Below, piece after piece: positions 1 to 15,555 of a stretch of 49,171 nt of DNA. The notes beneath the pieces were generated by a model. That model made no database searches, was not told the DNA's origin, and saw only the letters and a list, made by a program, of their open reading frames with translations. Within the stretch, counting starts at the first letter, position 1. The number at the start of each line of letters is the position of its first letter. A program made the translations under genes and the position numbers. Location: NCBI RefSeq assembly GCF_000497245.1, contig NZ_AWTC01000022.1, positions 1-49,171 of the forward strand, read 5' to 3'. The stretch is from Sporolactobacillus laevolacticus DSM 442 (GTDB taxonomy: Bacteria > Bacillota > Bacilli > Bacillales > Sporolactobacillaceae).

Positions 1-17
1 TTGGTCACTTTAATGAT

Positions 18-46: not shown

Positions 47-128
47 CCTCCAACCTAGCTGGCTAATTTGATTTTACAACTGGCCATCTAATAACATATT
101 GATAAATTTTATAGAATGTCAAATGGTT

Positions 129-170: not shown

Positions 171-476
171 GTATAAAGGTATAAACTTTTTTGCGCGGTA
201 TAAAGTTTTAAGTGATTCTGATTAATTTAAAAAAATATGTCAGATAAAGTGACAATTTCATGGACAAAAAATTTTTAGAAAACTAAAATAAATTCATCGG
301 ATGAAATTATATTTTACAAATATTAATTTTATCTAGCATAAAATATTATCTATTTTTGCAATTTTTTTAGAATTCACAAGAGAAAAATTCAGTCATTTTC
401 TTGGGGGTGATACATAATTTTTGTTGTTGACCGATCCATTGCACGGTGTCTTTAAAAAAAGGAGGATGAACAAGAA
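171..476 (+). promoter_or_regulatory. AT-rich leader of the muropeptide operon with two candidate operators
   Basis: About 300 bp without a gene. Two palindromes stand out: TTTTAG-AAAA-CTAAAA (273-288) and TTCATC-G-GATGAA (293-305), the latter extending with one mismatch to 290-308. RpiR-family regulators such as MurR generally bind inverted repeats, and murR lies in this operon, so these are candidate operators (inference). No convincing -35/-10 pair could be assigned; TAAAAT/TATTAT-like boxes lie around 340-350. Confidence 0.35.
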
Positions 477-2297
477 TTGAAGGTAATTAAACGTCTTACT
501 ATTTTAATGCTTATAGCATTACTGGCTATCTCAATGACTGCATGTGGCGGTACGACTTCAAATATGAGTGGATCAAAATTCACGACTGTTTATTATTACC
601 ATCCAATTTCTCCCGGTGCACCTAAAAACCCTTATAATGCCACGGGAAATTCATTCACAAGTTTTGACAAAATGCAGCTAGCCTGGTCAGCAAATTCTGC
701 CACAGACCTGAACAAATTCTATCCAGGTTTGGCAGAAAAATGGAGCGCGAATTCGGACGGAACAACTGCAACTGTCGAAATTCAGCCGAAAGCAAAGTGG
801 TCCAATGGGAAGCCTGTAACTGCTAATGATGTTAAGACATCCATGGCTATTGCATTTACACAAGGCACTGCACAATCATTCTCATTGGGATCGGTTAAAG
901 TCCTGTCTCAGAAAAAAGTAGAGCTAAGTCAATTGCCTGGAGCAAAATATAATATGTTCCTACATGATTTGCTACAGCAGACAGTTGTTCCCGACTTTCA
1001 GTACGGCAAACTACTGCCTAAGAATATCTGGGCATTGATTGATCAGTCTTTGTACAGTGGTAAAGATAAAGCCAAAGCCGCTCAGGCAAAGAAAGCTCAG
1101 GAACAGATTACAAAACTTGGAAAAAGTATTACTACATTCGCACCAAAAACAGATATTTCCGCAGGTCCTTTCGTTTTGAAACGCTTGAATCCCGGCGAAG
1201 CTTATTTGGTTAAAAATAAGTACTTCTACGCGAGTGAAAAAGTGAAAGTTGGCAGCGTTTCTCTAAGAAATTATACCGGAAACCAACAGATCTGGAATTA
1301 CCTCACTTCCGGTCAGCTAGACGCAGCGCCGTTCACGGCAATGCCTCAAAACGTTCTGGACAATATTGTTAAGACAAAAGGTAACCAGAAAGTAGTCTCA
1401 CCAACTTATGTTGCCGCGTCCCTGGCATTTGACCAGAAATTCTATCCTTACGGCAATGTCAATGTTCGCAAAGCTCTTGCTTACGTCATTGACCGAAAAG
1501 CTGTACAGAAAGTAGCAGAGCCAGTTGTTGGAAAGCCATCTAAATACACAGACGGCATTGTAGATAGTGTGGCTGGAAAATGGATCGATGCGTCAACGCG
1601 TTCGAAAATGGATACCTACGATCTTAATCTGAAAAAGGCAACAGCTATGCTTCAAAAAGAAGGATTTAAGAAAACCAATGGTAAATGGGTTATGCCTAAT
1701 GGAAAGCCTTGGACGATGGATATCTATGTTGTTAACGGATTTAGTGACTGGATTCAAGGCGGTAAAGTAATTTCGAGTCAGCTGACCAATTTCGGAATTG
1801 ATGCGAAACCGACGATCGTTAGCAGCTTTGCACAGTATCAGGCTGATTTGGCGGCTCAGAAATATGCAGTAGGTTTCTGGCTGGATTCACTTGGAGCAAG
1901 CATGTATACATCGTTTGGCAGAATTTATGGTATGCCAGACGGATATAACGTAGTCGGTGGAAAACTTACTTATTCCGATCAGAAAGATAAAACAAAGGGA
2001 AATTGGGTTGGTATTCCACAAAATCTTAAATTATCTGCAGGTGAAAAAGTCAATCCTGGTAAACTAACCTATCAGTTGAATCAGATGAAGGTTGACGAGC
2101 AGCGTCCGAATGTCCAGAAGCTGGCGCTAGCAACCAATGAATATGTTCCGCTCATCGAAATCTGGGATTATATCCATGTTCAATTCGTAAACAATAACAG
2201 ATTTACCAACTTCCCAGTCAAAGACGAAGGCTTAATGAATAACATGCCAGGCGTGTGGATGTCGATGGGCTATGTCACACCCAAATCTTCAAAATAA
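477..2297 (+). CDS. oligopeptide/muropeptide ABC transporter substrate-binding lipoprotein
   Basis: Extracytoplasmic solute-binding protein of family 5 (Opp/Dpp type), 606 aa, expected to capture peptides outside the cell and deliver them to the two permeases encoded next. The N-terminus has two basic residues, a hydrophobic stretch and the lipobox MTAC, so Cys at about residue 23 should be lipidated and the protein membrane-anchored. The start is TTG, 11 nt after a clear GGAGG (461-465); the only ATG nearby abuts the SD and opens a four-codon frame. It is first in a plus-strand array running to 15347 that continues into MurNAc-salvage genes, so the likely cargo is muropeptide or murein tripeptide rather than general oligopeptides (inference from context). 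Family assignment is firm; ligand is not. Confidence 0.88.
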   Translation: MKVIKRLTILMLIALLAISMTACGGTTSNMSGSKFTTVYYYHPISPGAPKNPYNATGNSFTSFDKMQLAWSANSATDLNKFYPGLAEKWSANSDGTTATVEIQPKAKWSNGKPVTANDVKTSMAIAFTQGTAQSFSLGSVKVLSQKKVELSQLPGAKYNMFLHDLLQQTVVPDFQYGKLLPKNIWALIDQSLYSGKDKAKAAQAKKAQEQITKLGKSITTFAPKTDISAGPFVLKRLNPGEAYLVKNKYFYASEKVKVGSVSLRNYTGNQQIWNYLTSGQLDAAPFTAMPQNVLDNIVKTKGNQKVVSPTYVAASLAFDQKFYPYGNVNVRKALAYVIDRKAVQKVAEPVVGKPSKYTDGIVDSVAGKWIDASTRSKMDTYDLNLKKATAMLQKEGFKKTNGKWVMPNGKPWTMDIYVVNGFSDWIQGGKVISSQLTNFGIDAKPTIVSSFAQYQADLAAQKYAVGFWLDSLGASMYTSFGRIYGMPDGYNVVGGKLTYSDQKDKTKGNWVGIPQNLKLSAGEKVNPGKLTYQLNQMKVDEQRPNVQKLALATNEYVPLIEIWDYIHVQFVNNNRFTNFPVKDEGLMNNMPGVWMSMGYVTPKSSK

Positions 2298-2364
2298 TCT
2301 CAAGTAAGGGATAGACGCGAAATATTGAAAAAAAGACTAGATGAAAAGGGGGGTGCAGGATTTC

Positions 2365-3357
2365 ATGAAAGATTTTTTAATCCGCCTTGTATGGCGGATT
2401 TTTTCTGGCATTTTAATGGTTTTGGCCGTCGCTTCCTTAACTTTTTTCCTTGTACGTATGATGCCTGGTGATCCGGTTAATGCTCAATATAATCAGCTGA
2501 TCATGCAGGGGATGACACCTGTCCAAGCGGAGAATCAGGTTAAGGTGATGTACGGTTTTATCCCTAAGGAGCCTGTTGGTCAGCAATTTGTCAACTATAT
2601 TTTGAACCTTTTACACTTCGATTTTGGGCAGTCCATCTCCTATGAAGGCGTTAGTGTATCGCATATTATTGTGAGTGCGGCACCTTGGACACTGGTTCTC
2701 GTATTTACAGGCTTAATCGCAAGTTTCCTTATCGGAGTTTTGGCGGGAGTCATCGCTGCCATCAAACGTTCATCACCATTTGGCACATCATTAACGGTTT
2801 CCGGCTCCTTACTACATGGCATTCCCCAATTTGTTATGGGGCTGCTGCTTGCCTATTTGTTCACAACACTATGGCCGCTTCTGCCTTTTGGTGCACCATA
2901 CGATTCATCAATTGATCCGGGATTTAACTGGCCGTTTATCTCGTCGCTTTTCAGTCACGCCGTTCTTCCGGTTTTTACTTATGCGTTATCTAGCTATGGA
3001 GGTTGGCTACTGACCATGAAATCGAGTGTTATAACAGTACTTGGTGATGATTTCATCCTGGCTTCGGAGATCAGGGGACTGAAGGCTTCGACACGAGTCG
3101 GTTATATCGCTCACAATGCAATCCTTCCGCTGTTCACACTATTTACTTTATCAATCGGATTTATGTTCGGTGGATCGGTTTTTATTGAAAATATCTTCGA
3201 TTATCCTGGATTGGGAAATTTGCTACTTAAGTCTATTGATACAAGAGACTATCCATTAATGAGCGGAGCTTTCTTGTTGATCACCATTGCGGTTATTCTA
3301 TCGAATATTATTACGGATTTTCTCTATTCGATTGTCGATCCCCGCATAAGGAGGTAA
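2365..3357 (+). CDS. peptide ABC transporter permease (OppB/DppB type)
   Basis: First inner-membrane permease of the importer, about 330 aa, with the hallmark N-terminal helix followed by RMMPGDP, an extracytoplasmic segment, and five further membrane segments. The cytoplasmic EAA-like loop that contacts the ATPases is visible as ASEIRGLKASTRVGYIAHNA. The C-terminus ends in the typical VDPRIRR. An in-frame ATG exists at 2341, but the GGGGGG stretch at 2348-2353 sits at proper distance from ATG 2365, so that start is preferred. It lies 67 nt after the binding protein gene and 7 nt before the second permease, consistent with one operon. Confidence 0.87.
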   Translation: MKDFLIRLVWRIFSGILMVLAVASLTFFLVRMMPGDPVNAQYNQLIMQGMTPVQAENQVKVMYGFIPKEPVGQQFVNYILNLLHFDFGQSISYEGVSVSHIIVSAAPWTLVLVFTGLIASFLIGVLAGVIAAIKRSSPFGTSLTVSGSLLHGIPQFVMGLLLAYLFTTLWPLLPFGAPYDSSIDPGFNWPFISSLFSHAVLPVFTYALSSYGGWLLTMKSSVITVLGDDFILASEIRGLKASTRVGYIAHNAILPLFTLFTLSIGFMFGGSVFIENIFDYPGLGNLLLKSIDTRDYPLMSGAFLLITIAVILSNIITDFLYSIVDPRIRR

Positions 3358-3364
3358 GTCCTGT

Positions 3365-4282
3365 ATGGGAACAACGAGTACAATGAAATCTATTAAACAA
3401 TTTAATCCTAAAGCCTATCAGAGGCAGTCTTTCTGGAGGGCTGCATGGAAGGCAATCTCTAGAAAGCCAGGTCGGTTGGTCGGCTTCATCATTATTGTTA
3501 TCTTTACGTTGATGGCGATCGTTGGACCCTATCTTTTTCCAAAAGAGCTCCCGATCGATCCTAATGCAATTTATGCGCCGCTCAGCTGGAAATACCCGCT
3601 CGGAACGGATTTCGAGGGCACCAGCAATCTGGCACTGATCATTACCGGTGCAAGATATGTATTGCTAGCGGCAGCGCTCGGCGCACTGTTTACTGTCGTC
3701 TTTGGGACTGTTTTGGGTCTTGTTGCCGGCTATTTTCTCGGTTGGTCGGATTCAGTGATCATGCGCATCACAGACTTTTTTCTGACGGTTCCTTCTTTTC
3801 CGCTACTGGTCGTTCTGTCAACAGTCTGGAATTTCGGGCATCCGCTCGCAATGGGCTTTATTCTTGGAATAACGGGCTGGGGAGGAATGGCAAGAGCTGT
3901 ACGATCACAGACACTGTCTCTTCGTGAACGGGGATTTATCGAGGCAGCCAGAGGTCTTGGCCTTTCACCCTTCTATATACTTTTCAGGGAGATCCTTCCT
4001 AATGTTAGTTCCTATATTGGCATGAACCTGCTGACATCAATCACCGGCTGCATTTACGCGGAAGTCGGACTGTTCTTCCTGGGTGTCGTGCCATTCCATG
4101 TTAATAATTGGGGGGTTATGCTGAATATGGCTGTTTTTTCCGCCGGGGCTATGTCTAGTCCAAGTGCATTGCCCTATCTGCTTTCCCCTCTTCTTGCCTT
4201 GCTGATTTTAACACTTGGCATTGTTCTATTCTTAGATGCGGTTGATGAAATGTTCAACCCACGTTTAAGGGAGGATGCTTAA
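3365..4282 (+). CDS. peptide ABC transporter permease (OppC/DppC type)
   Basis: Second permease of the heterodimeric channel, 305 aa. It shows the OppC-type N-terminal domain (basic cytoplasmic tail, one membrane helix ending near residue 60, then an extracellular LGTDFEGTSN segment) and the BPD_transp_1 domain with about five helices. The EAA loop is present around FIEAARGLGLSPFYILFREI. A strong AAGGAGG ends just before the ATG. Its stop codon is separated by one base from the chosen start of the first ATPase gene, which indicates translational coupling. Confidence 0.87.
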   Translation: MGTTSTMKSIKQFNPKAYQRQSFWRAAWKAISRKPGRLVGFIIIVIFTLMAIVGPYLFPKELPIDPNAIYAPLSWKYPLGTDFEGTSNLALIITGARYVLLAAALGALFTVVFGTVLGLVAGYFLGWSDSVIMRITDFFLTVPSFPLLVVLSTVWNFGHPLAMGFILGITGWGGMARAVRSQTLSLRERGFIEAARGLGLSPFYILFREILPNVSSYIGMNLLTSITGCIYAEVGLFFLGVVPFHVNNWGVMLNMAVFSAGAMSSPSALPYLLSPLLALLILTLGIVLFLDAVDEMFNPRLREDA

Positions 4283-4283
4283 A

Positions 4284-5309
4284 ATGACAAATGCCTCATC
4301 GGCAAATATGGAGAACGTAATTGAAGAAAAAAATCAAGACATGGCAATCAGCGCTAGAAATATTAATGTCGTTTATTCGACCCCCACAGGTCAGATTCCA
4401 GCTGTCCGAAATGTTGACATCGATTTACCCAAGGGAAGCATTACCGGAATTATCGGAGAATCTGGTTCAGGTAAGTCGACTCTGATCATGGCGATTATGA
4501 ATGCAGTGACGAAACCAGGGAAAATTGAGAGCGGGTCGGTCATTCTAGATGGCAAGGAAGATATGTTGAAATTGAGCACCGAGCAGCAGAGAAAAATCCG
4601 AGGAAAGAAAATCGGGTTTGTTTTTCAAGCGGCTCAAAATTCATTGAATCCGCTTCGAAGAGTTGGTCAGCAGATCCTAGACTTGGGACGATCGCATGAT
4701 GTGAAAGATTTAAGAGCGCTGATAAAGTACGCAAAAGAATTATTGATGCGTCTAGGATTAGATGCAGATCGAGTGCTGGCTTCGTATCAGCATGAATTGT
4801 CTGGCGGGATGAGGCAACGTGTCGGAATCATGTTTGCACTTGTTCTGAATGCGGATATCGTATTCCTGGATGAATCGACGACAGCTCTGGATATGCTCTC
4901 TCAAGCATCAGTGCTCGAAATCATCCGTGAACTTCAAAAGGAAAAAAAACTAACGATTGCACTCGTTTCTCATGATATTGGTGTCATTGCTGACCTTTCC
5001 GAGCGAATTGAAATTTTCTACGCAGGGGAGATTGTAGAAGAAGGAAAAACGGATGATGTTTTAGCAAATCCTCAACATCCGTATACGAGAGGCTTGATTC
5101 GCGCTATTCCGAAAATCTCGGGAGATATCGACTCCGCAGAGCCTTTGAAAGGTGCATCACCAGATTACAAGACCTATCAGCAGCCCGGCTGTCTTTTCTA
5201 TGATCGCTGTCCGATCAGAACGGATGAATGCCTGAAAAAAAGGCCGGATCTGACTCATATTGGCAAATCTCACAAGGTTGCCTGTTTTAGGGTGGGTGTC
5301 CATGATTGA
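4284..5309 (+). CDS. peptide ABC transporter ATP-binding protein (OppD/DppD type)
   Basis: Cytoplasmic ATPase subunit, 341 aa. Visible motifs are Walker A GESGSGKST, signature LSGGMRQR, Walker B IVFLDESTTALD and the switch histidine in VSHD. The C-terminal oligopeptide-transporter extension carries the cysteine-rich CLFYDRCPIRTDEC region typical of OppD/OppF and often linked to an Fe-S cluster in relatives. ATG 4284 is chosen because GGGAGG (4269-4274) is 9 nt upstream; the in-frame ATG at 4275 touches the SD. The end overlaps the next gene by 8 nt. Confidence 0.87.
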   Translation: MTNASSANMENVIEEKNQDMAISARNINVVYSTPTGQIPAVRNVDIDLPKGSITGIIGESGSGKSTLIMAIMNAVTKPGKIESGSVILDGKEDMLKLSTEQQRKIRGKKIGFVFQAAQNSLNPLRRVGQQILDLGRSHDVKDLRALIKYAKELLMRLGLDADRVLASYQHELSGGMRQRVGIMFALVLNADIVFLDESTTALDMLSQASVLEIIRELQKEKKLTIALVSHDIGVIADLSERIEIFYAGEIVEEGKTDDVLANPQHPYTRGLIRAIPKISGDIDSAEPLKGASPDYKTYQQPGCLFYDRCPIRTDECLKKRPDLTHIGKSHKVACFRVGVHD

Positions 5310-6312
5310 AATTAAAAATCTAGAAAAGTATTTCACAATTAAAGCGAAATTTTCTGATCGAAAGATAGTGCACGCAGTTCGTCGCGCCAGCTTAACGATT
5401 CCCGATGGTGGGGCGGTTTCTCTAATTGGCGAATCAGGTTGCGGGAAAACAACAATAGGCCGGATGCTTTGCGGGATGGAAACGCCGAGTGAAGGAACCA
5501 TTATCATTAATGGGCAGGACATTTCCAAATTGAGACGAGGGGCACGAGCTCGACTGCTTCAAAAAATACAACTGATTCATCAGGACCCCTATCAGGCCTT
5601 GAATCCAACACATACGATTCAGCAGATGATGTCTGCGACTTTGAAAAAAATGGCGAGACAAAAGAAGAAGGGAGCTGAATGGATCAGTCAGCGTACGAAT
5701 GAGCTGCTCAAACTAGTGGGACTCGATCCTTCAACGATTTTGTTTAAATATCCGCACATGCTGTCCGGTGGGCAGAAACAGCGGGTGATCATCGCTAGAG
5801 CACTAACCGTTGAACCGGAAATGCTAGTCGCCGATGAAGTCGTTTCAATGATTGACGTGTCTTTGCGGCTTGGAATTTTAAAACTACTACGCAGTCTAAG
5901 AGAAAAGTTTAATATTTCTATATTATTTATTACACATGACATTGCATCGGCACGTTACCTGGGGAGCAATACAGAACTGTATGTGGTCTATAAAGGAATG
6001 ATTATTGAAAAAGGTCTGACCGAGCAGGTAATTCGTCAACCTCACCATCCCTATACACAAGCATTATTAAGTGCAATGCCGATTCTGAAAGGCATCGAAA
6101 AGCCGGGGAAAGATCGCTTTGTTTTGACCTCGCAGTTCCGGCAAAGTGAAGAAGAGCAGGTAGGATGCCTTTTTGCCGATCGTTGTCCGTTCAGTCAACC
6201 GATTTGCAGTGAAAAACGGCCGGAACTCATCTCACAGGGAAACAGTACAGACGCTTATGCATGTTTCTTTCCAGAAATACGTGATGTAGCTGCAGTTTCG
6301 GTTGACCATTAA
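5302..6312 (+). CDS. peptide ABC transporter ATP-binding protein (OppF/DppF type)
   Basis: Second ATPase of the importer, 336 aa, pairing with the preceding subunit. Walker A GESGCGKTT and signature LSGGQKQR are intact. The Walker B/D-loop reads VADEVVSMID where the family usually has DEPVSALD: the catalytic Glu is kept, but the following Pro and the Ala-Leu of the D-loop are changed. The cysteine-rich C-terminal segment CLFADRCPFSQPIC is present. Translation starts at ATG 5302, overlapping the stop of the upstream gene (ATGATTGA), so expression should be coupled. The open frame extends upstream to 5260 without a ribosome binding site. A 58-nt gap follows before murR. Confidence 0.86.
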   Translation: MIEIKNLEKYFTIKAKFSDRKIVHAVRRASLTIPDGGAVSLIGESGCGKTTIGRMLCGMETPSEGTIIINGQDISKLRRGARARLLQKIQLIHQDPYQALNPTHTIQQMMSATLKKMARQKKKGAEWISQRTNELLKLVGLDPSTILFKYPHMLSGGQKQRVIIARALTVEPEMLVADEVVSMIDVSLRLGILKLLRSLREKFNISILFITHDIASARYLGSNTELYVVYKGMIIEKGLTEQVIRQPHHPYTQALLSAMPILKGIEKPGKDRFVLTSQFRQSEEEQVGCLFADRCPFSQPICSEKRPELISQGNSTDAYACFFPEIRDVAAVSVDH

Positions 6313-6370
6313 ACATACTTTTATTCCTTTAAATACTGGTATGGAACATAAATAATAAAAGGTGATGACC

Positions 6371-7228
6371 ATGTTAAGAGGCGGACTCTCAAGACTTAAG
6401 GAATCTTATCGGGCACTTAATCCATCAGAGCAAAAAGCGGCAAAATTTACTCTAGATTATCCTGACCAAATGGTTCAAATGACTGTGAGTGAGCTGGCAG
6501 CAGCGAGCGGATCAAGTCAGTCAGCGATCATTCGTTTATGCAAAACACTTAATTTAAAGGGCTATCAGGAGTTGAAATTATGTGTTGCCGGAGATTTACA
6601 GGATTCATCGTCCAATGGCGATGAATATAAAGAAATTAATCCGGGCAGTGATTTGAGCACCATCGTTACTTCTGTATCGAATAACAATATTTACTCAATT
6701 AACGAAACACTCAAAGTTCTCGATATTCAAAAGCTCCAAAAAGCAATTGACTTAATTGAGGGTGCGCGCCGCATAGATTTCTTTGGATCAGGCGCTTCTC
6801 AGCTCGTCGCATGTGATGCGCAGATAAAATTTATGCGAATTGGTAAAGCCTGCACAGCTTACGCTGACAATCATTTGCAGTTGACATCGGCCTGCACTTT
6901 GACAAGTGATGATGTCGCTGTCGCCTTTTCCAACTCTGGCGAAACTCTTCAAACAGTCGAATGCATTAAAGCTGCTAAGAATTCAGGTGCAATGACCATT
7001 GGCATCACACGTTACGGAAACAATACACTTGGACAGCTAGTCGATGTCCATATCGGAATTGCTTCTTCAGAATCTGATGTACGGAGTGCTGCGACTTCAT
7101 CACGAATTGTCCAGTTGAACATTGTGGATATTATTTATCTCTCCATTGCCGGACATCAATATGAATCATCCTTGAAATATCTCAATCGATCATTGGGCGC
7201 GATCAAAAATAGTTTTCGGGTCAAGTAG
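6371..7228 (+). CDS. murR: RpiR-family transcriptional regulator, MurR-like
   Basis: About 285 aa with an N-terminal HTH_6 domain (VSELAAASGSSQSAIIRLCK, then LNLKGYQELK) and a C-terminal SIS sugar-phosphate-binding domain (DFFGSGASQLVACDAQIKF). Members of this family sense phosphosugars; B. subtilis MurR responds to MurNAc-6-phosphate and represses the murQRP-amiE-nagZ-namZ cluster (established for that species). Here it lies between the importer and the salvage enzymes, so it probably controls both. The start is ATG 6371 with AAAGGTGATG upstream; two in-frame starts lie within that SD and are rejected. Candidate operators are the palindromes before the first operon gene. Confidence 0.85.
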   Translation: MLRGGLSRLKESYRALNPSEQKAAKFTLDYPDQMVQMTVSELAAASGSSQSAIIRLCKTLNLKGYQELKLCVAGDLQDSSSNGDEYKEINPGSDLSTIVTSVSNNNIYSINETLKVLDIQKLQKAIDLIEGARRIDFFGSGASQLVACDAQIKFMRIGKACTAYADNHLQLTSACTLTSDDVAVAFSNSGETLQTVECIKAAKNSGAMTIGITRYGNNTLGQLVDVHIGIASSESDVRSAATSSRIVQLNIVDIIYLSIAGHQYESSLKYLNRSLGAIKNSFRVK

Positions 7229-7239
7229 GTGGCAAAAAG

Positions 7240-8298
7240 ATGAGTGAGAACAACCGGTCTTTTAAATTACTAGATAAATTTTTACATGAGATGGTTGAAG
7301 CACATCAGATTCCCGGTGCTGTCTATGCCATACTCGATAAAAATGGAACACTCGTTGAAAATGCAGTGGGTTTTTCTCATAAAGATAAAAAAATACCGAT
7401 GACGATGGACACGTTGTTTGATTTGGCTTCTCTTACCAAAGTCTGTGCAACTTTGCCGAGCATCTTTTTGTTGATTGAAAAAGGCAGAATCGATATTGAT
7501 GATCCCATTCAGATGTTCTTTCCTGCATCAGTGAACAGTGAGCTTACTCTCAGAGATTTACTTACACATACTAGCGGATTTCCACCGTCGTTTCCGTTTT
7601 ATCAATACAGATGGACGAAAGAAGAAATCTTGAATTACATTCTTTCAATAAATGCTGAACCCGGAAAGCACACTGTTTATAGTGATCTTAATTTTATTCT
7701 ATTGGGCTTTCTTGTAGAAAAACTTACGTACCAGCCACTGGATGTTTTTACGGAGGAAAGTGTGTACCGACCATTGGGCATGACTCATACCTGCTTTAAT
7801 CCCCAGGCGGATTTGCAGTACATTGCGCCAACGGAATGGCTTCCGGATGCTAATAAGTTTCAGTGGGGAGAGGTGCATGATGAAAATGCGCATTACATGG
7901 GAGGAGTATCCGGTCATGCAGGCCTGTTTTCAAATCTTCATGATTTGAAGATTTATGTTCACATGCTGATGAATGAAGGCAAGACGGAACACGGGAATTA
8001 TTTTATATCACCCGCGACGCTTCTGGCTAGTCGTAAAAACTATACAAAGCATTTGGAATATAACCGTGGACTTGGCTGGCAGCTTGCCGATGACCGTTAT
8101 TCTCCTGGAGGTTATTATGTTTCGGATCAAGGTTATGGCCACACTGGGTTTACCGGTACTTCTTTCTGGATCGATCCGGAAAGTGATCTTGGTTTTATTT
8201 TACTAAGTAACAGAGTGCACATCAGCCGTCAAATTAATATGAATCGCATCCGGAGAATAGTTAATAATCTCGCAATGTCTGAGTTGGCCAAAAAATAA
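7240..8298 (+). CDS. amiE: beta-lactamase-family serine hydrolase, AmiE-like N-acetylmuramyl-L-alanine amidase without signal peptide
   Basis: 352 aa serine hydrolase of the penicillin-binding-protein fold. The catalytic SxxK is SLTK at residues 64-67, the second motif is YSD at about 147-149 and the third is GHTG near residue 293. In B. subtilis the homologous AmiE (YbbE) removes the peptide from MurNAc in the murQ cluster and is exported. This protein starts directly with a hydrophilic sequence and has no signal peptide, so it should act in the cytosol. It follows murR by 11 nt. The amidase role rests on family and context; an esterase or D-Ala peptidase role is possible. Confidence 0.72.
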   Translation: MSENNRSFKLLDKFLHEMVEAHQIPGAVYAILDKNGTLVENAVGFSHKDKKIPMTMDTLFDLASLTKVCATLPSIFLLIEKGRIDIDDPIQMFFPASVNSELTLRDLLTHTSGFPPSFPFYQYRWTKEEILNYILSINAEPGKHTVYSDLNFILLGFLVEKLTYQPLDVFTEESVYRPLGMTHTCFNPQADLQYIAPTEWLPDANKFQWGEVHDENAHYMGGVSGHAGLFSNLHDLKIYVHMLMNEGKTEHGNYFISPATLLASRKNYTKHLEYNRGLGWQLADDRYSPGGYYVSDQGYGHTGFTGTSFWIDPESDLGFILLSNRVHISRQINMNRIRRIVNNLAMSELAKK

Positions 8299-8346
8299 AG
8301 CCTGAAATAGATAAATGTCTCTAAATCTAAGCACAGGGGTGTGAAA

Positions 8347-9525
8347 ATGGTTGATAAATATGTTGTCGGCTTGATGTCCGGAACATCAGCTGATGGAATT
8401 GACTCGGTGCTCACAAGAATTAAAGATTCAGGAGATCAGACTGAGCTCGAGGTTCTGGATTTTGAGACGATACCATATACGCAGGAGATGCAGAAAAAAA
8501 TATTTACAGCAATGGACCCTGACCGGTCGAGTTCTCCCTTGATCTGTAGCTTGAATTTCGAACTAGGGTATTGTTTTGCTGATGCGGTGAAGTCATTGTG
8601 CCGCCATGCTCACTTTTCAATCGACAGAGTGGATCTTATTGGTTCTCATGGCCAGACTATATATCATATTCCGGATTCAGACGAAACTTATCACGCCTCA
8701 ACCTTGCAAATTGGTGAACCTGCTGTTATCTCATACGAGACGCGCACACCTGTAGCTTCAAACTTCCGCGTCATGGATATGGCGGCGGGAGGACAAGGCG
8801 CACCTCTGATTCCTTATGTGGACTATTTATTGTTCAGAAATCTTGAACGAACCATTGCCCTGTTGAATATTGGAGGTATTTCGAATATCACGGTTCTCCC
8901 AAAAAGAGGAAACTTGCGGAGTGTTCAGGCCTTTGATATGGGTCCTGGAAATATGATTATCGATGAACTTGTCCGAAAGTTCTATGGCAGACCCTATGAC
9001 CGAAATGGAAACTTTGCGAAAAGGGGTAAAGTGATCAAGCAGATTTTGAAAACATTGATGAATGATTCGTATTTTGCAAAAAAACCGCCAAAATCCACTG
9101 GACGCGAACGTTATGGAAAACAGTATGCGGAATGGATGGTGGAGAATTGGCACGATCAAAATTCCGATGACTTGATTGCCACTGCAACCTGTTTTACCGC
9201 AAAGGCTATCTTCAAAAATTATCAGGATTTTATTCAATCTAAAAACCCAGTTGACGAGATATGGGTGAGTGGGGGAGGCAGTCATAATCCAGTCTTAATA
9301 GGGTGGCTGCAAACGATGTTACCAGATGTCACGATCAAAACCTTTGAAAGTAATCGGTTAAATGCTGATGCAAAAGAGGCAGCCGCTTTCGCTGTGCTGG
9401 CAAATGAAATGGTGCATCAGCAGCCAGCAAATGTTCCCACCGCGACCGGTGCAAAAGAACAATTGATATTGGGAAACTATACTCCCTTTACTGGAATGAA
9501 AAACAGAATACTAATCGGAGGATGA
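8347..9525 (+). CDS. anmK: anhydro-N-acetylmuramic acid kinase
   Basis: 392 aa, matching AnmK (UPF0075) across its length: N-terminal GLMSGTSADGID phosphate-binding motif, NIGGISNITVL, the AFDMGPGNMIID segment, and the C-terminal VSGGGSHNPVL motif. AnmK opens the 1,6-anhydro ring of anhydroMurNAc and phosphorylates it to MurNAc-6-phosphate, the substrate of MurQ. ATG 8347 is preferred to GTG 8341 because AGGGGTG lies about 7 nt upstream of it. The gene ends 5 nt before the start chosen for the acetyltransferase. AnhydroMurNAc is made by lytic transglycosylases, so its presence suggests such products are taken up or formed. Confidence 0.9.
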   Translation: MVDKYVVGLMSGTSADGIDSVLTRIKDSGDQTELEVLDFETIPYTQEMQKKIFTAMDPDRSSSPLICSLNFELGYCFADAVKSLCRHAHFSIDRVDLIGSHGQTIYHIPDSDETYHASTLQIGEPAVISYETRTPVASNFRVMDMAAGGQGAPLIPYVDYLLFRNLERTIALLNIGGISNITVLPKRGNLRSVQAFDMGPGNMIIDELVRKFYGRPYDRNGNFAKRGKVIKQILKTLMNDSYFAKKPPKSTGRERYGKQYAEWMVENWHDQNSDDLIATATCFTAKAIFKNYQDFIQSKNPVDEIWVSGGGSHNPVLIGWLQTMLPDVTIKTFESNRLNADAKEAAAFAVLANEMVHQQPANVPTATGAKEQLILGNYTPFTGMKNRILIGG

Positions 9526-9530
9526 AATCG

Positions 9531-10505
9531 ATGTATTATGTGCCGATCACGCGAAATCGCGCGAACGATATCGTGCATCTCTGGAATCAGGAAATAGGTG
9601 ATGAATTTCCCTTAAGGAAGGAGCTTCTGATTCAGAACAGTTATGAAGACACCAATGTATTAGCTGCTGGTTCCTGCTTGGCAGTCGATGAAAGCGGCAA
9701 TCTTATCGGATTTATCATTACAAAAAAATATCAGGAAGCCATTGACGTCGGATTTAATAGTGAGCTTGGATGGATTCAAGTCCTGCTCGTTAAGACTGAA
9801 AATAGGAACAGAGGAATCGGTACAGAACTTTTGAGAAGAGCCGAGGATGCACTTGAGAAGCGCGGTGCAAAGAAAATTATACTTGGCAAAGATGTCTGGC
9901 ATTATTTTCCCGGCATTCCTGATCATTACGTTCAAGTCAAACAGTGGTTTGTTTCCAGAAATTATCATTTCGATGGAAGAGAATACGACCTATTGACTGA
10001 AACACCGGTTCTGCAGATTCCAGAGGTTAAGGAAGCACGGTTCTTGCTTTTAAATAATAAAAATGATCAAGGTTTGTTGCTTGATTTTCTGCATCGATGC
10101 TTTCCGGGACGTTGGGAATATGAAGCTATTAAATATTTTGAGATGGGCGGCGATGGGAGAGAATTTGTCATCCTGAAGAACGATGTACAAGTCATTGGTT
10201 TCTGTAGGATTAACGATCACCTCTCCCGTCAAATCGCCCAGAACGTCTATTGGTCTCCTCTATTTACAGATGGGCTAGGTGGAATGGGTCCTCTGGGAAT
10301 TGACGCGGCAGAACGCGGAAAAGGATATGGCATTGCTCTTGTGCAAGCGGGAATCGCTTATCTCAGTAGACGCGGTCTGAAACATTTTATTATTGATTGG
10401 ACACAGTTAATAGACTTTTACAAAAAAGTAGGCGCACATCCTTGGAAGTCCTATGCTACTTACTTCAAATCATTAGAGAATGAAAAAGTAGCAGGAGTCC
10501 GGTGA
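9531..10505 (+). CDS. tandem-domain GNAT acetyltransferase of unknown substrate
   Basis: 324 aa with two GNAT domains. The first carries the acetyl-CoA-binding motif RNRGIGTELL at about residues 98-107; the second carries RGKGYGIALV at about residues 262-271 and ends with the FYKKVGAHPW segment. A single-copy GNAT gene (ybbJ) lies beside murQ in B. subtilis, so the association with MurNAc salvage recurs, but the acceptor is unknown; an amino group on an amino sugar or on a released peptide is a reasonable guess. ATG 9531 has CGGAGG 9 nt upstream; the ATG at 9522 overlaps the stop of anmK but directly abuts that SD. Confidence 0.75.
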   Translation: MYYVPITRNRANDIVHLWNQEIGDEFPLRKELLIQNSYEDTNVLAAGSCLAVDESGNLIGFIITKKYQEAIDVGFNSELGWIQVLLVKTENRNRGIGTELLRRAEDALEKRGAKKIILGKDVWHYFPGIPDHYVQVKQWFVSRNYHFDGREYDLLTETPVLQIPEVKEARFLLLNNKNDQGLLLDFLHRCFPGRWEYEAIKYFEMGGDGREFVILKNDVQVIGFCRINDHLSRQIAQNVYWSPLFTDGLGGMGPLGIDAAERGKGYGIALVQAGIAYLSRRGLKHFIIDWTQLIDFYKKVGAHPWKSYATYFKSLENEKVAGVR

Positions 10506-10541
10506 ATCTGAGAAAAATATATTGATCAAGGTGATACTCAA

Positions 10542-10595
10542 ATGCAGGACTTGTTTACAGGTTTTTGGCGTGATGATAAAGCAGTTATTCAATAA
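10542..10595 (+). CDS. possible 17-residue small ORF between the GNAT gene and murQ
   Basis: ATG at 10542 follows AAGGTGAT by about 6 nt and encodes MQDLFTGFWRDDKAVIQ before a TAA. It may be a start-proximal remnant of a lost gene or a leader that couples translation to murQ, which starts 33 nt later. I do not recognise the peptide and the frame is short enough to be chance. Confidence 0.25.
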   Translation: MQDLFTGFWRDDKAVIQ

Positions 10596-10628
10596 TCGCA
10601 AATTGCAGTTTTAAAAAGGATGGTTTGA

Positions 10629-11534
10629 ATGCTGGATAAACTGACGACAGAGGCACGAAATAAAAAAACAACCAATCTAGATATGATGACGGTTCATGAA
10701 ATGTTAAGCAGCATGAATCAGGAAGATCAGAGTGTGCCTCAAGCAGTTTCAAGAGAATTGGGGAAAATTGAACAGGTTGTGAAATCTGCAATTCACGCTT
10801 TTCAATCTGGTGGACGACTCATCTATATGGGTGCGGGGACAAGTGGAAGGCTTGGCGTGTTGGATGCTGTTGAGTGTGTCCCAACTTTCAGTTCTTCTCC
10901 AGACAGAGTTGTCGGTCTGATTGCCGGAGGGAACAAGGCACTTACTGAAGCGGTTGAAGGGGCTGAGGATAATGAAACGATGGGTTCTGGAGATTTGGCT
11001 GCATTAGATCTTACCGAGAATGATTTGGTTGTGGGAGTCGCGGCTAGCGGAAGGACACCATACGTGATCGGCGGTTTGAAGTATGCTCAGAAAATTGGTG
11101 CTTCCACAGCAAGTCTTAGCTGCAATCGCTATGCCGAAATCAGCAAATATTCGAATATGGCGATCGAGATAGAAACAGGGCCGGAAGTACTGACTGGATC
11201 CACACGACTTAAAGCGGGTACTGCTCAAAAATTAGTTTTGAACATGATTTCTACTGCTTCTATGATCGGTCTAGGAAAAGCTTATGAAAATTTGATGGTA
11301 GATGTACAACCGAATAACGAAAAACTTGTTGAGCGTTCGAAAAAGATCATTATGGAAGCAACAGGTACGGATCTGAAGACTGCGGAGAATGTATATTTTA
11401 ATGCACATCAGAATGTTAAAGCGGCGATCCTCATGATACTGCTTGGTTGCTCTCTAGATGAGGCACTGGAACGTTTAAAGCACGCGAATGGATTTATCAG
11501 GAAGGCAGTTGTCGCGAATAACAAATGCGAATAA
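10629..11534 (+). CDS. murQ: N-acetylmuramic acid 6-phosphate etherase
   Basis: 301 aa, full length for MurQ. The enzyme removes D-lactate from MurNAc-6-phosphate to give GlcNAc-6-phosphate, the committed step of MurNAc catabolism. The SIS domain shows GAGTSGRLGVLDAVE at about residues 68-82, with the first catalytic Glu at 82 and the second in VEGAEDN at about 113. N-terminal LTTEARN and C-terminal KAAILMILLGC segments are family-typical. The start is ATG 10629 behind AAAAAGGATGG. It can be fed by AnmK and by the downstream MurK-like kinase. Confidence 0.93.
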   Translation: MLDKLTTEARNKKTTNLDMMTVHEMLSSMNQEDQSVPQAVSRELGKIEQVVKSAIHAFQSGGRLIYMGAGTSGRLGVLDAVECVPTFSSSPDRVVGLIAGGNKALTEAVEGAEDNETMGSGDLAALDLTENDLVVGVAASGRTPYVIGGLKYAQKIGASTASLSCNRYAEISKYSNMAIEIETGPEVLTGSTRLKAGTAQKLVLNMISTASMIGLGKAYENLMVDVQPNNEKLVERSKKIIMEATGTDLKTAENVYFNAHQNVKAAILMILLGCSLDEALERLKHANGFIRKAVVANNKCE

Positions 11535-11564
11535 TCTCTTAATTTATCTGAAAGAGGTTTGGAA

Positions 11565-12515
11565 ATGGATAATTATTATATAGCCATTGATGGCGGTGGG
11601 ACAAAAACTGACGCGGTAATATTTTCAACTGGTGGGCAACTAATCAACAGAGTTATTGGTGCTGGAACCAATCCGAATGGAATGGATTTTAATCAGGTAA
11701 CTGAGCATTTTCGGAAACTTTTCTCAGAACTCATGTCTGTGAAGAAGCCGGTATCGATTGCCGGTTGTTATGCCGGATTATCTGGTTCTGATCATCCGGC
11801 GTTAACCCGCAAATTGGCAAATGCTATAAAGGACGCTTGCCCTGTAAAAATCAGTCATCTGCAGGTTGGAAACGATGCGATGAACGCTTTGTGGAGCGGC
11901 ACAGATGGGAGGCCAGGACTCGTTGTGATTGCAGGAACCGGTTCAATCGCTTTTGGTATTCTTGACAATGGAAAATATTTTCGAATGGGTGGCTGGGGCT
12001 ATCTGTTCGGTGACGAAGGAAGCGGTTATGCGATCGGACGTGAAACAGTTCGGCGTGTGCTGATGGTCTATGATGGGCGTGAAAGAGAAACAACTTTAAT
12101 TTCAGCGCTTACCCGGTATTTTCATGTGCAATCCATTAATGATATTGTGCCGATTGTCTACCAATCATCCAAAGATGTTATTGCTGGATTAGTTCCGATT
12201 GTGGCAAGTGAAGCGGAACAAGGGGATTGCTTGGCTGAACACATTCTATTTGAGGCAGCGCAAGACCTAATTTCTCTTATTCAAAACGGAATGTCCAAAT
12301 TTGAATCAGTGCCTGAAACGGTGCTTGTCGGTGGTGTATGGAACAGCCGGATCATTCGTGAAAAAGTTTGTTCTGGAATCTCTGCCCCATTTATTTTTCC
12401 TGACTATCCTCCTGTGTACGGATCAATTGCGAAATGCGTTAATGAGTGGGAATATCAGAATGAAGGGCTTTTGGATTCGCTAAAAAAGCAGCTCATCAAA
12501 GGTAAACCTGCATAA
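11565..12515 (+). CDS. BadF/BadG-family N-acetylhexosamine kinase, MurK-like
   Basis: 316 aa sugar kinase of the ASKHA fold. The phosphate-1 loop is IDGGGTKTDA near the N-terminus, followed by GNDAMNAL, IAGTGSIAFG and GGWGYLFGDEGSGYAIGR. The closest functional model is MurK of Clostridium, which phosphorylates MurNAc and GlcNAc at O6 (established for that enzyme); eukaryotic-type NAGK belongs to the same family. Placed between murQ and namZ, it would phosphorylate MurNAc and GlcNAc released in the cytosol, replacing the phosphorylation that MurP gives in B. subtilis. ATG 11565 is chosen over TTG 11559 because AGAGGT lies 6 nt upstream. Confidence 0.8.
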   Translation: MDNYYIAIDGGGTKTDAVIFSTGGQLINRVIGAGTNPNGMDFNQVTEHFRKLFSELMSVKKPVSIAGCYAGLSGSDHPALTRKLANAIKDACPVKISHLQVGNDAMNALWSGTDGRPGLVVIAGTGSIAFGILDNGKYFRMGGWGYLFGDEGSGYAIGRETVRRVLMVYDGRERETTLISALTRYFHVQSINDIVPIVYQSSKDVIAGLVPIVASEAEQGDCLAEHILFEAAQDLISLIQNGMSKFESVPETVLVGGVWNSRIIREKVCSGISAPFIFPDYPPVYGSIAKCVNEWEYQNEGLLDSLKKQLIKGKPA

Positions 12516-12547
12516 CTAAAAAAAATCAATAAATGAGAGGCGTAAAA

Positions 12548-13693
12548 ATGATTCAATTAGGTATTGAAACATTGCTGCGGGACCAAATAGCACTGCTAAA
12601 GGGAAAGCGGGTCGGTTTGCTTACTAATATGACTGGACTGGACAGCAGACTGTGTCCGACCATCGATCTACTCATGGCTCAGCCGGATATTCATTTGTCG
12701 GCTTTATTTGGACCGGAACACGGTGTTCGAGGAGACGGTCAGGAAGGCTTGCCAATTGAATCATATACGGATCCGCTGACTCATCTACCAGTTTATAGCC
12801 TTTACGGTAATACCCGGAAACCAAGCAAAGCGATGCTGAAGAACATCGATTGCATCGTCATTGATTTGCAAGACATTGGTGTGCGATATTATACTTTTAT
12901 TTCAACTATGAGTTTAGTAATGGAAGCATGTATGGAAGAATCAAAGGAGGTCGTGGTTCTCGACCGGCCTAATCCGGTAAACGGTCTAAACCGGGAAGGG
13001 AATATTCTTGATAAGTCACTTTCTTCATTTGTTGGAATGCATCCTCTCCCAAATCGTCATGGATTGACAATCGGCGAGCTCTCACTGCTTTATAAACATG
13101 AATTCGGAATTAACTGTTCGTTGACTGTAGTACCGATGAAGAGATGGAGTCGGACGATGTACTTCCGGGAGACCGGTTTATGCTGGGTTCAGCCTTCACC
13201 AAACGCTACGGGAGAAGCGATGGCTGTCCTCTATCCTGGGATGTGCCTTATTGAAGGCACGACGCTTTCTGAAGGAAGAGGAACGACACGTCCATTTGAA
13301 GTGATTGGTGCCCCGTATATGAATGGTTCGGAAATTGCTGACAAATTCAACCAACTCGGCTTGAAGGGAGTACTTGCACGGCCAACAAGTTTTGTACCCT
13401 ATTATTCAAAATACAAAGGGAAGCTTTGCCGAGGAATTCAAATACATATTACTGATATTAGTAAGGTTCAGTCTTATAAGATAGGTCTTTACACATTAGG
13501 ACTGGTCGCCGAAATGTATCCATCTGAGTTTTCGTTTCTCGGAAATGGTAATCGATGCACTTTCAATCTGTTGGCAGGAAATACGAAGATCAGGCAGAAA
13601 ATATTGGAAAATAATTTTGACGATTTCTTTGAACAATGTCAAGCGGAATGCGATCAGTTCAGCGAACATGTCCTGCCTTATTTATTGTATTAG
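12548..13693 (+). CDS. namZ: exo-beta-N-acetylmuramidase NamZ (DUF1343) without signal peptide
   Basis: 381 aa DUF1343 protein. Conserved blocks are KRVGLLTNMTGLD, FGPEHGVRGDGQEG, YSLYGNTRKPS, DLQDIGVRYYTFISTM, LDRPNPV and the C-terminal LNRG-like region. In B. subtilis NamZ (YbbC) releases MurNAc from the non-reducing end of peptidoglycan fragments and is secreted. This copy starts with a cytosolic-type sequence (MIQLGIETLL) and lacks any export signal. ATG 12548 follows GAGAGG by 7 nt; the ATG at 12533 precedes the SD and is rejected. nagZ follows after about 43 nt. Confidence 0.87.
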   Translation: MIQLGIETLLRDQIALLKGKRVGLLTNMTGLDSRLCPTIDLLMAQPDIHLSALFGPEHGVRGDGQEGLPIESYTDPLTHLPVYSLYGNTRKPSKAMLKNIDCIVIDLQDIGVRYYTFISTMSLVMEACMEESKEVVVLDRPNPVNGLNREGNILDKSLSSFVGMHPLPNRHGLTIGELSLLYKHEFGINCSLTVVPMKRWSRTMYFRETGLCWVQPSPNATGEAMAVLYPGMCLIEGTTLSEGRGTTRPFEVIGAPYMNGSEIADKFNQLGLKGVLARPTSFVPYYSKYKGKLCRGIQIHITDISKVQSYKIGLYTLGLVAEMYPSEFSFLGNGNRCTFNLLAGNTKIRQKILENNFDDFFEQCQAECDQFSEHVLPYLLY

Positions 13694-13736
13694 TTCCATT
13701 AAACAAAGACTATTTAAAAAGACACTTTTTAATGGG

Positions 13737-15347
13737 GTGATTCCAATTACTTTTCAAAATAGAGATCTCATTCAAAACATAGGTCAACTGATGGTTTTTG
13801 GCTTTTATGGAAAGAAGATGACACCTGAATTAAAGCAATTTATCAATAAAAACAAGTTAGGAAACATTATTCTTTTTTCAAGAAATATGGATGACCAGTT
13901 GCAGATCCGTCAGTTAACGATGGAACTTCAGGGGGAGGCAAAAAGGGCTGGGCATAAACATCCACTGTTAATTTGTACGGATCAGGAAAATGGCGCAGTA
14001 CGGCGCCTGGGCTCTGGCTCGACTGAATTTCCCGGATCGATGCTTATCGGAGCTACATATTCAACAGCAAATGCATTCGAAATTTCTAGAATGACGGCGG
14101 AAGAATTAAAGAGTGTCGGCATTAACTGGAATCTAGCTCCTGTTGTAGATGTCAATAATAATCCCGCAAATCCAGTTATCTGCACGCGTTCGTTTGGAGA
14201 AGATCCTCAAGTGGTTGCTGAAATGGGAGAAGCATTTATGCGAGGAATGCAGTCAGAGGGTATCGTATCGACACTGAAACATTTTCCCGGACACGGAGAT
14301 ACGGGAGTTGATTCCCACTTGGATCTTCCTGTCATCCCCCATAATTTGGAAAGACTGGAATCGGTTGAACTCGTTCCGTTCAGAAAATGTATCAAGGCAG
14401 GTACTGATGTGATCATGAGCGCACATGTTTATTTTCCTGCTATTGAAAAACAATATGGACTACCGGCTACACTCTCCAAAGCAGTTCTGACTGGACTATT
14501 GAGAGAACGCCTTCACTTTCAGGGAGTTATAACGACGGATTGTTTGGAGATGAAAGCCATCGATGATCGGTTCGGTACCGCTCAGGGCGCCGTTATGGCA
14601 TTCCAGGCCGGAGCAGATTTTGCCATGGTTTCACATACGTTTGAGAAGCAGAAGGAGACACTGGAAGCTGTAACTAGTGCTCTTGAAAACGGAAAAATCG
14701 ATACACAATCAGTTAGAAATTCGATGGAAAGAATTGATAGACTGAAGGATAAATATCTAGATTGGGGTCAGGCCCTGAAAAAGGAGGTCATTTCAGTTGA
14801 AAAAGGAGAAGAACATTGGACGACTGCAGAAAAAGTGTACCATGAAGGGATCACATTATTAACTAACAAACAGGATCTGCTTCCTCTTTCAGACAGAAAA
14901 AATTCAAAAACTCTGTTTCTGTATAGTGGAATGGTCTTTGCAGCGAAGGTAGAGGATCAGAAAGATCAAATATCGGTCTTTGAGTCAATCGTTAAGTCTG
15001 TACACACTGAATCAGAAGTTGCCAAAATCGAGGATCCATCGTTCAATGTTCTTTTGAAAAATGTGATCTCTACCACTGAAAGCTACCAGGCCGTTGTCCT
15101 ATTAACAGTTTCGATTACGAAAGGAAGCAGCCAAATTGACTTATTGACACAGCTGAAGAAAACCTGCAATTGTCCGATTATTGTTATTGCCGCAAAAAGT
15201 CCTTATGATCTTCGCTTATTACCACAGGCAGATGGTTATATCTGTACTTATGATTTTAATCCGCTGTCCCTTAAAATCGCAATTCGCACACTGTTTGGAT
15301 TGGATAAGGTGTATGGCAGACTACCGATTAGTTTGAATAACACATAA
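13737..15347 (+). CDS. nagZ: glycoside hydrolase family 3 beta-N-acetylglucosaminidase NagZ, cytosolic form
   Basis: About 536 aa with an N-terminal GH3 barrel and a C-terminal alpha/beta domain, as in Bacillus NagZ. The catalytic acid/base loop KHFPGHGDTGVDSH places the Asp-His dyad at about 192 and 194, and the nucleophile is Asp in TTDCLEMKAI at about 268. It should cleave GlcNAc from GlcNAc-MurNAc(-peptide). The start is uncertain: the frame is open back into namZ to 13545, but the only SD-like GGGGTGA covers GTG 13737, leaving either that GTG or an ATT at 13746. No signal peptide is present under any start, unlike the exported B. subtilis enzyme. It is the last gene of the array. Confidence 0.85.
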   Translation: MIPITFQNRDLIQNIGQLMVFGFYGKKMTPELKQFINKNKLGNIILFSRNMDDQLQIRQLTMELQGEAKRAGHKHPLLICTDQENGAVRRLGSGSTEFPGSMLIGATYSTANAFEISRMTAEELKSVGINWNLAPVVDVNNNPANPVICTRSFGEDPQVVAEMGEAFMRGMQSEGIVSTLKHFPGHGDTGVDSHLDLPVIPHNLERLESVELVPFRKCIKAGTDVIMSAHVYFPAIEKQYGLPATLSKAVLTGLLRERLHFQGVITTDCLEMKAIDDRFGTAQGAVMAFQAGADFAMVSHTFEKQKETLEAVTSALENGKIDTQSVRNSMERIDRLKDKYLDWGQALKKEVISVEKGEEHWTTAEKVYHEGITLLTNKQDLLPLSDRKNSKTLFLYSGMVFAAKVEDQKDQISVFESIVKSVHTESEVAKIEDPSFNVLLKNVISTTESYQAVVLLTVSITKGSSQIDLLTQLKKTCNCPIIVIAAKSPYDLRLLPQADGYICTYDFNPLSLKIAIRTLFGLDKVYGRLPISLNNT

Positions 15348-15555
15348 ATGGTGTATGAAGTAGAACATCTCGTTAGATTTTTGAGAGTCACACCAGCACG
15401 CCTAGTTATTAACATGATTTGTTAAGTTACCGATTAATTTAGAAAATGACCTTAGATCATCTTTTTCTTAAATATGAATCAACTTTTTTAAAAATAGTCA
15501 CCTTCAAATTTATGCTATAGTGGTTATATAGTATTGAATCAGAAGGGGAATAGAA

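Follow-up and report, generated by a model that had tools for sequence, protein, structure and literature searches.

How Gram-positive bacteria re-import cell-wall fragments is poorly known. In its passages on Gram-positive uptake, a review states that AmpG appears to be absent from these organisms and that other specific transporters may import the fragments, and these passages name no ATP-binding cassette (ABC) system (PMC6448482). The question is raised by an operon of the spore-forming lactic acid bacterium Sporolactobacillus laevolacticus DSM 442, carried by a stretch of 49,171 nucleotides (NZ_AWTC01000022.1, hereafter the window), which is one entire contig of a genome of 3.59 Mb, 99.8% complete. 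Thirteen genes, all on the forward strand and separated by gaps of -8 to +123 nt, span positions 477-15347: five genes of a family-5 ABC importer are followed by murR, an amiE-like gene, anmK, a tandem GNAT gene, murQ, a murK-like gene, namZ and nagZ. What does this importer carry, and where do the enzymes act on it?

The substrate, the enzyme activities, their cellular location and the regulation that we infer can be put as follows. A MurR-controlled operon would bring soluble wall-sugar fragments to the cytosol via a dedicated ABC importer. These fragments would be N-acetylglucosamine-N-acetylmuramic acid (GlcNAc-MurNAc), MurNAc-GlcNAc or perhaps longer pieces, and may or may not bear a stem peptide. 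The substrate-binding protein (SBP) of the importer would be a family-5 protein of the oligosaccharide branch. In the cytosol AmiE would strip the peptide, NagZ and NamZ would cut GlcNAc and MurNAc off the non-reducing end, and the MurK-like kinase, with AnmK on anhydro ends, would produce MurNAc-6-P and GlcNAc-6-P. MurQ would turn MurNAc-6-P into GlcNAc-6-P, from which NagA, encoded elsewhere, would take the pathway on, and the tandem GNAT may re-acetylate glucosamine of de-N-acetylated wall. We assign this reading as a whole, i.e. a MurR operon with a saccharide-branch ABC importer and cytosolic dismantling, a probability of about 0.65.

Gene content and predicted location of the enzymes

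Gene families were assigned with Pfam and NCBIfam models. All 13 genes listed in an earlier note on this DNA were recovered in the single-strand order given there and with agreeing domain calls; the note had described the importer as fused to the salvage genes, whereas the two sets are adjacent and not fused. The importer comprises the SBP (477-2297, SBP_bac_5), which has a TTG start and is lipoprotein-like, with Cys23 kept in 5/5 aligned rows, a DppB/OppB-type permease (2341-3357, BPD_transp_1), a DppC/OppC-type permease (3365-4282, BPD_transp_1 and OppC_N) and two ATPases, both with ABC_tran and oligo_HPY domains and a Walker A motif. The first ATPase is of OppD type (4275-5309, LSGGM), and the second is of OppF type (5302-6312, LSGGQ), with an ATG at 5302 inside a longest open reading frame (ORF) from 5260.

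The salvage part opens with a MurR-like regulator of the RpiR family (6362-7228, HTH_6 and SIS; MurR/RpiR models below cut-off) and a putative MurNAc-L-Ala amidase similar to AmiE (7240-8298), which has a beta-lactamase fold with SLTK, YSD and HTG motifs and PBP4B as its top NCBIfam match, below cut-off. The anhydro-MurNAc kinase AnmK (8341-9525, AnmK Pfam domain, NCBIfam above cut-off), the tandem GNAT acetyltransferase (9522-10505, two Acetyltransf_1 stretches) and the MurNAc-6-P etherase MurQ (10629-11534, NCBIfam above cut-off) come next, then a predicted MurNAc/GlcNAc kinase similar to MurK (11559-12515, BcrAD_BadFG; NagK-like, below cut-off) and the exo-beta-N-acetylmuramidase NamZ (12533-13693, NamZ_N and NamZ_C). 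The last gene encodes the beta-N-acetylglucosaminidase NagZ (13737-15347, Glyco_hydro_3, KHFPGHGDTGVDSH), for which the beta-N-acetylhexosaminidase NCBIfam model scored above cut-off. Its longest ORF opens at 13545, within namZ, and the likely start is the GTG at 13737, giving 536 aa.

Signal peptides were judged by eye and with a home-made score rather than a dedicated predictor, the line being set at 1.9 after a first look at the data; with this line, control families were called exported in 0/61 MurR, 0/34 AnmK, 0/23 PIG-L, 1/76 MurQ and 2/100 MurK proteins. In agreement with the earlier note, neither approach revealed a signal peptide on AmiE (MSENN...), NamZ (MRGVKMIQLGIE) or NagZ read from 13737 (VIPITFQNRDLIQNIGQ). 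The three frames open few residues ahead of the catalytic domain, and the N-termini leave no room for a signal. The untrimmed NagZ ORF scored 1.86, slightly below the line, and its extra stretch overlaps namZ.

The genome holds a single NamZ and a single GH3 protein. Its nine EIIC proteins of the phosphotransferase system (PTS) gave no match to the MurP model at E 1e-100, in a search that had mannose-family PTS outside its scope; their best NCBIfam matches were GlcNAc, sucrose (2), cellobiose/lactose, trehalose, beta-glucoside, mannitol and fructose (2) transporters. The lack of murP noted earlier for the cluster extends in this way to the whole genome, and a murP, a second NamZ or a second GH3 elsewhere, which together with export of such paralogues the earlier note had named as evidence that would speak against cytosolic dismantling, were ruled out by genome-wide searches, which for murP covered the nine EIIC proteins. 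NagA scored above cut-off and is encoded on another contig. Three beta-lactamase-fold proteins scored above cut-off in the genome, the AmiE-like one of the window included. As a second AmiE, neither L282 (23.6% identical to AmiE) nor L283 (27.7% over 141 aa, with a hydrophobic N-terminus) was accepted.

Neither the exported AmiE, NagZ and NamZ nor the MurP, in the cluster or in the genome, that mark the Bacillus subtilis type were found, while the NagZ, the amidase and the MurNAc/anhydro-MurNAc kinases of cytosolic recycling are all there and look cytosolic from their sequences. Import followed by cytosolic dismantling, which the earlier note had proposed, is well supported by the missing signals, by the absence of MurP and by the cytosolic-looking NamZ of 30/34 chains linked to ABC importers alone (see below). 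For the part of the importer in it, gene linkage and the lineage of the binding protein are what speak for a carrier of muropeptides or muro-saccharides. That AmiE looks cytosolic suggests peptide on some of the imported fragments, and a peptide still attached at import is plausible.

The binding protein of the importer

The earlier note had called the importer peptide-type. This is probably wrong, since the SBP groups with VhCBP, the family-5 chitooligosaccharide-binding protein of Vibrio, and like it bears an aromatic-x-Asp motif at the sugar site, though single-sequence scores are near a tie. The comparison with Opp- and MppA-type proteins that the note had suggested gave a divided answer. 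A profile of the SBP run against solved structures favoured a chitin binder: its highest scores were 67.5 bits with 8i5j, whose label says no more than substrate-binding protein, and 67.0 with the top named solved relative, 1zty (chitin oligosaccharide binding protein). VhCBP chains reached 59-61, compared with 56 for OppAIV, 49.5 for OppA (8are) and 37 for MppA. The single-sequence scores did not separate the two classes. For the SBPs of two other salvage operons, scores of 229 and 267 bits were obtained with VhCBP versus 51 (OppA, 8are) and 64 (OppA, 1b05). Three of the seven family-5 paralogues of the same genome were matched to the PDB, and their best matches were an oligopeptide-binding protein, Lmo0135 and AppA.

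In a maximum-likelihood tree of 24 rows, 7/7 of these paralogues split off at 100/99, leaving on the side of VhCBP itself the window genus, five other SBPs encoded near salvage genes and six further relatives. One of the paralogues (L018) resembles a regulator that carries an SBP domain rather than a transporter component. We take the tree as support and not as proof, because the branch of the window clade is long, the rows were mostly collected by likeness to the window SBP, and no OppA reference was included among them.

Conservation of Asn204, Trp363, Asp365 and Trp513 of VhCBP was taken as the mark of the oligosaccharide branch; alanine substitutions of W363 and D365 are described as costing 4.7 and 8.6 kcal/mol, respectively, for (GlcNAc)2 (PMC8449061). 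At the W363-x-D365 site the window SBP has Phe422-x-Asp424 and so differs from VhCBP in carrying Phe422 for Trp363; Asn269 and Asp424 are present in the alignment, and the equivalent of Trp513 is not alignable. An aromatic-x-Asp motif occurs at this site in 6/6 SBPs near salvage genes (window, L034, L093, L168, L170 and L192; the L192 importer diverges from murR and that of L034 lies about 7 kb from the salvage genes on its contig) and in 0/7 own paralogues. Six relatives without a salvage link have Tyr-x-Asp (two), His-x-Asp (three) or Trp-x-Ser (one).

Several observations weigh against a place on the oligosaccharide branch. With the single sequence, 8i5j (49.9) and 1zty (49.6) are nearly level with OppA (48.5), and two own-genome paralogues (50.5 and 45.4) outscore VhCBP (43.8). 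The window clade has a branch of length 1.5 in the tree and is not adjacent to VhCBP, and the grouping of the other rows is partly selected. Moreover, the VhCBP contacts to the N-acetyl group, Arg436 and Phe437, are not conserved. An AlphaFold2 model of the SBP alone had a mean pLDDT of 33.9, and a scan of viral contigs with the SBP alignment found no relative.

The near tie with OppA and with the genome's own paralogues, together with the family-5 architecture and the Opp/Dpp-type permeases and ATPases, could be taken to mean that the importer is an ordinary oligopeptide transporter for stem peptides that merely shares the operon, sugars entering otherwise; a mannose-family PTS is indeed present in the window. 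We consider this improbable, as all seven paralogues separate in the tree and lack the motif, no MurP match exists among the nine EIIC proteins, and CUT-type importers fill the same slot in relatives. The top solved relatives of the SBP bind chitooligosaccharides (PMC8449061), which raises the further possibility that the operon scavenges chitooligosaccharides or another GlcNAc-rich polymer besides or instead of murein. NagZ and the GlcNAc/MurNAc kinase could handle chitobiose, but the N-acetyl contact residues of VhCBP are not conserved. We also know of no role of MurQ, NamZ, AnmK or AmiE in chitin use, on general knowledge of these families, and this explanation appears the least probable of those weighed here.

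We read the window SBP as a putative saccharide binder of altered specificity, with a muro-disaccharide or a longer fragment, with or without peptide, as its more likely cargo. To our knowledge, muro-saccharides are not known as a ligand class of family 5 in Gram-positives.

Conservation of the operon and exchange of the importer

At E 1e-30 the binding protein turned up in 2/299 genomes of the order, which both belong to the window genus; NamZ was present in 12/26 genomes of the family and 5/15 of the genus, so that the cluster is patchy. Three more clusters of the genus were obtained through NamZ and one through the MurK scan of named genomes. Five other Sporolactobacillus-type clusters (L031, L090, L091, L092 and L193, the last from Sporolactobacillus sp. 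THM7-4 and the closest named locus among the best 80 of 547 MurK matches) share the order importer-murR-amiE-(anmK)-gnat-murQ-murK-namZ-nagZ, and this preserved order makes the cluster more than a product of chance. The least fixed member is AnmK, absent from L031 and L091 and split into two frames in L090 (L090:6573-7707), and this makes anhydro-fragments less likely to be the main substrate.

Upstream of the operon, at 302-316 on the forward strand, lies TGAAAT-TAT-ATTTTA, kept in 5/5 aligned upstream regions. Five Sporolactobacillus-type genomes have a palindrome near TGAAAT-N3-ATTTCA 164-177 nt 5' of the SBP gene; in five relatives whose importers are of another kind, it lies 81-96 nt 5' of murR. 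At most one mismatch to TGAAATNNNATTTCA was counted in 10/11 operon upstream regions versus 4/186 other upstream regions, a contrast inflated because these sequences had themselves supplied the consensus; the upstream region of L194 has two mismatches, a level reached by 13% of its shuffles. The pattern TGAAATNNNATTTTA has exactly two occurrences in the genome, one of them at the operon. As a candidate MurR operator, the palindrome would link the family-5 importer with the salvage genes.

In another genus of the same family (L086), the importer consists of an SBP_bac_1 lipoprotein and two permeases of the CUT1 sugar type, with no ATPase adjoining; L087 and L088 have a trio similar to it and a related set lies near L089. 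The CUT label comes from Pfam domains in L086 and in the binding protein of L089; the L087 trio received it by our own reading, and other loci by BLAST similarity to these. A family-5 importer recurs in a further genus of the family, between nagZ and namZ (L093, SBP 22% identical to that of the window), and outside the class together with anmK, murK, amiE, GNAT, nagZ, namZ, murQ and murR (L170). With these two full salvage operons, a chance linkage confined to a single genus can be rejected. Judged from gene content, the importer is an interchangeable part, relatives holding a sugar-type ABC importer in the same slot.

Two genes recur together in the salvage chains defined below: one encodes a de-N-acetylase of the PIG-L family (BshB1-like, below cut-off), the other a second tandem GNAT. 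Both are present in 15/109 chains (PIG-L in 20, the GNAT in 17), for instance at L093:2121-2861 and 12352-13299, at L031:14198-15937 and at L086, L102, L171, L176, L233, L253, L256 and L258; neither occurs in the window operon.

In order to relate importer type to enzyme location, 192 loci were annotated: the window, L031, 110 NamZ regions and 80 MurK loci, the latter being the best 80 of 547 matches in named genomes. The NamZ survey covered 110 places in 398 genomes; 99 regions (100 places) were used, nine were left out, mostly fragments, and one was the window. A chain was defined as a run of genes on one strand, no more than 300 nt apart, that includes at least two salvage genes, which gave 109 chains in 102 loci; L195 and L197 were dropped as duplicates for the NamZ and AmiE tallies, and other near-copies and overlapping regions were kept.

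In the 70 chains with NamZ, the enzyme was scored exported in 6/6 with a PTS only, in 2/2 with both PTS and ABC and in 4/34 with an ABC importer only. The PTS-only and ABC-only classes differ with a Fisher p of 5.5e-5, which, like the following two values, is not corrected for kinship and overstates independence because the PTS-only chains come from two families. Within the NamZ survey alone the counts were 6/6 versus 3/23 (p 1.8e-4), and 6/6 versus 3/18 after removal of the window genus (p 6e-4). AmiE was scored exported in 3/4 PTS-only versus 2/34 ABC-only chains and NagZ in 5/6 versus 2/25. Cytosolic scores of NagZ beside an exported NamZ (L085, L100, L200, L203, L222, L226, L247 and L263) may reflect long N-termini.

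As a PTS delivers phosphorylated sugar, kinases are expected with ABC importers. A first tally found MurK in 37/55 ABC versus 1/7 PTS chains, but the 55 held two PTS+ABC chains and 80/192 loci had been fetched with MurK; the recount gave 35/53 ABC-only chains in all. AnmK was present in 17/53 ABC-only versus 0/7 PTS-only chains in all, and in 7/23 versus 0/6 in the NamZ survey.

Taken together, the operon and its relatives name concrete candidates for the uptake of wall fragments in Gram-positives and suggest a simple rule, according to which importer type predicts enzyme location. The cluster is not special to this genome, ABC-linked cytosolic sets being found in many other Bacillota. Salvage in this phylum might run in two modes. 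In one, hydrolases are exported and a MurP PTS does the import; in the other, which would be widespread, an ABC importer is combined with kinases and with AmiE, NagZ and NamZ in the cytosol. The importer of the second mode would be exchangeable (CUT1 or family-5), and that of Sporolactobacillus would be one dedicated to muro-saccharides. We put this generalization forward tentatively, at slightly under even odds.

Several findings stand against such a rule and against the reading that we prefer for the operon. Twenty-eight NamZ chains have no importer in reach, and NamZ was scored exported in 9/28 of them; exported-scored NamZ also lies beside an ABC importer in L084, L136, L192 and L226. The six PTS-only chains represent just two families (f43 and f59) and three genera. 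Kinases are only weakly associated with ABC importers when loci selected by MurK are excluded, MurK occurring in 10/23 ABC-only versus 0/6 PTS-only chains of the NamZ survey (p 0.07) and in 5/18 versus 0/6 without the window genus (p 0.28). Finally, in L090, from a sister genome of the genus, the stretch 16604-19000 beside the ABC-linked operon encodes MupG and a MurP-like EIIBC, for which MurP is the best NCBIfam match, below cut-off; both routes can therefore coexist.

In Bacillaceae and relatives we also observed compact chains with a cytosolic-looking amiE, a CUT-type importer, murK and murQ, and with murR before or after (L212, L215, L217, L228, L232, L244, L257 and others). These chains contain no NagZ or NamZ scored cytosolic; in L226 the chain directly follows a NamZ scored exported. 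The importer there would most simply take a muramyl-peptide.

Reduced chains without NagZ and NamZ (L212, L217, L228, L257 and others) fit the entry of muramyl-peptides, and the window operon likewise includes a cytosolic-looking AmiE. The importer might accordingly take up whole GlcNAc-MurNAc-peptides, as the earlier note had suggested, sugar and peptide both being recognised and AmiE performing the first cytosolic step. A precedent is YejBEF-YepA of Agrobacterium, described as a peptide-family (family-5) ABC importer that carries muropeptides for murein recycling, its YepA being unique to Alphaproteobacteria and encoded apart from the permease (PMC9790009). By description, the window system differs from it in an SBP that clusters with a saccharide-binding protein and in the location of its importer genes inside a catabolic operon. 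The resemblance of the SBP lineage to saccharide binders and the possibility that AmiE serves minor peptide-bearing fragments only speak against whole-muropeptide import, which overlaps with the reading we prefer and to which we give rather less than an even chance. Import of muro-saccharides, with or without peptide, is retained as the preferred reading.

Relation to known systems and neighbouring genes

YbbC of B. subtilis, which we take to be NamZ, is presumably exported. In the murQRP-amiE-nagZ-ybbC operon of this organism AmiE and NagZ are described as acting extracellularly, with MurNAc entering through the MurP PTS; MurR, MurQ, AmiE and NagZ families are united in one cluster there as in the window, and ybbC is also part of it (PMC5061867). 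Unlike the B. subtilis operon, that of the window has no visible signals and no MurP and has an ABC importer and MurK-like and AnmK kinases.

MurK of Clostridium acetobutylicum was reportedly studied by Reith et al. in 2011, and its gene is, we believe, located beside nagZ, coding for a cytosolic NagZ, and a two-domain GNAT gene. The latter presumably corresponds to GlmA, which we take to be a glucosaminide acetyltransferase acting on GlcN and glucosaminides; the window GNAT also has two GNAT domains, a likeness by description alone. C. acetobutylicum MurK is a characterised Gram-positive kinase on MurNAc and GlcNAc (cited in PMC5790795), and the window encodes a similar predicted kinase.

In the Gram-negative AmpG-NagZ-AmpD-AnmK route, import is described as coming first, followed by cytosolic NagZ, amidase and AnmK (PMC5061867). 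The window set likewise pairs predicted import with cytosolic-looking NagZ, amidase and AnmK; it differs in its ABC importer, in the beta-lactamase fold of the amidase and in the addition of NamZ and MurK. MurP-MupG of Staphylococcus aureus is reported to recover the MurNAc-GlcNAc disaccharide through a PTS and a phospho-muramidase (PMC6262408). A muro-disaccharide is also the proposed product of uptake in the window operon, but the importer is of ABC type and MupG was not found in the window genome.

The elements of the operon are known. A search of open-licence literature retrieved no ABC importer for murein recycling in Bacillota, no set of these elements joined to a family-5 importer of the saccharide branch, and no rule that links importer and enzyme location.

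Terminator-like sites over positions 1-17000 showed no excess, 14 being counted versus 14.2 expected from shuffles. A LOG/lysine-decarboxylase-like gene (15556-16125) comes after nagZ; it occupies the same place in L090 and L092 and was not seen after nagZ in L031 or L091. Further downstream, at 22862-32475, two tandem LevR-like regulators, the first with Sigma54_activat, PRD and EIIA-man domains, precede a mannose-family PTS (IIB, IIAB, IIC and IID) with two IIB domains, one of which is a stand-alone gene.

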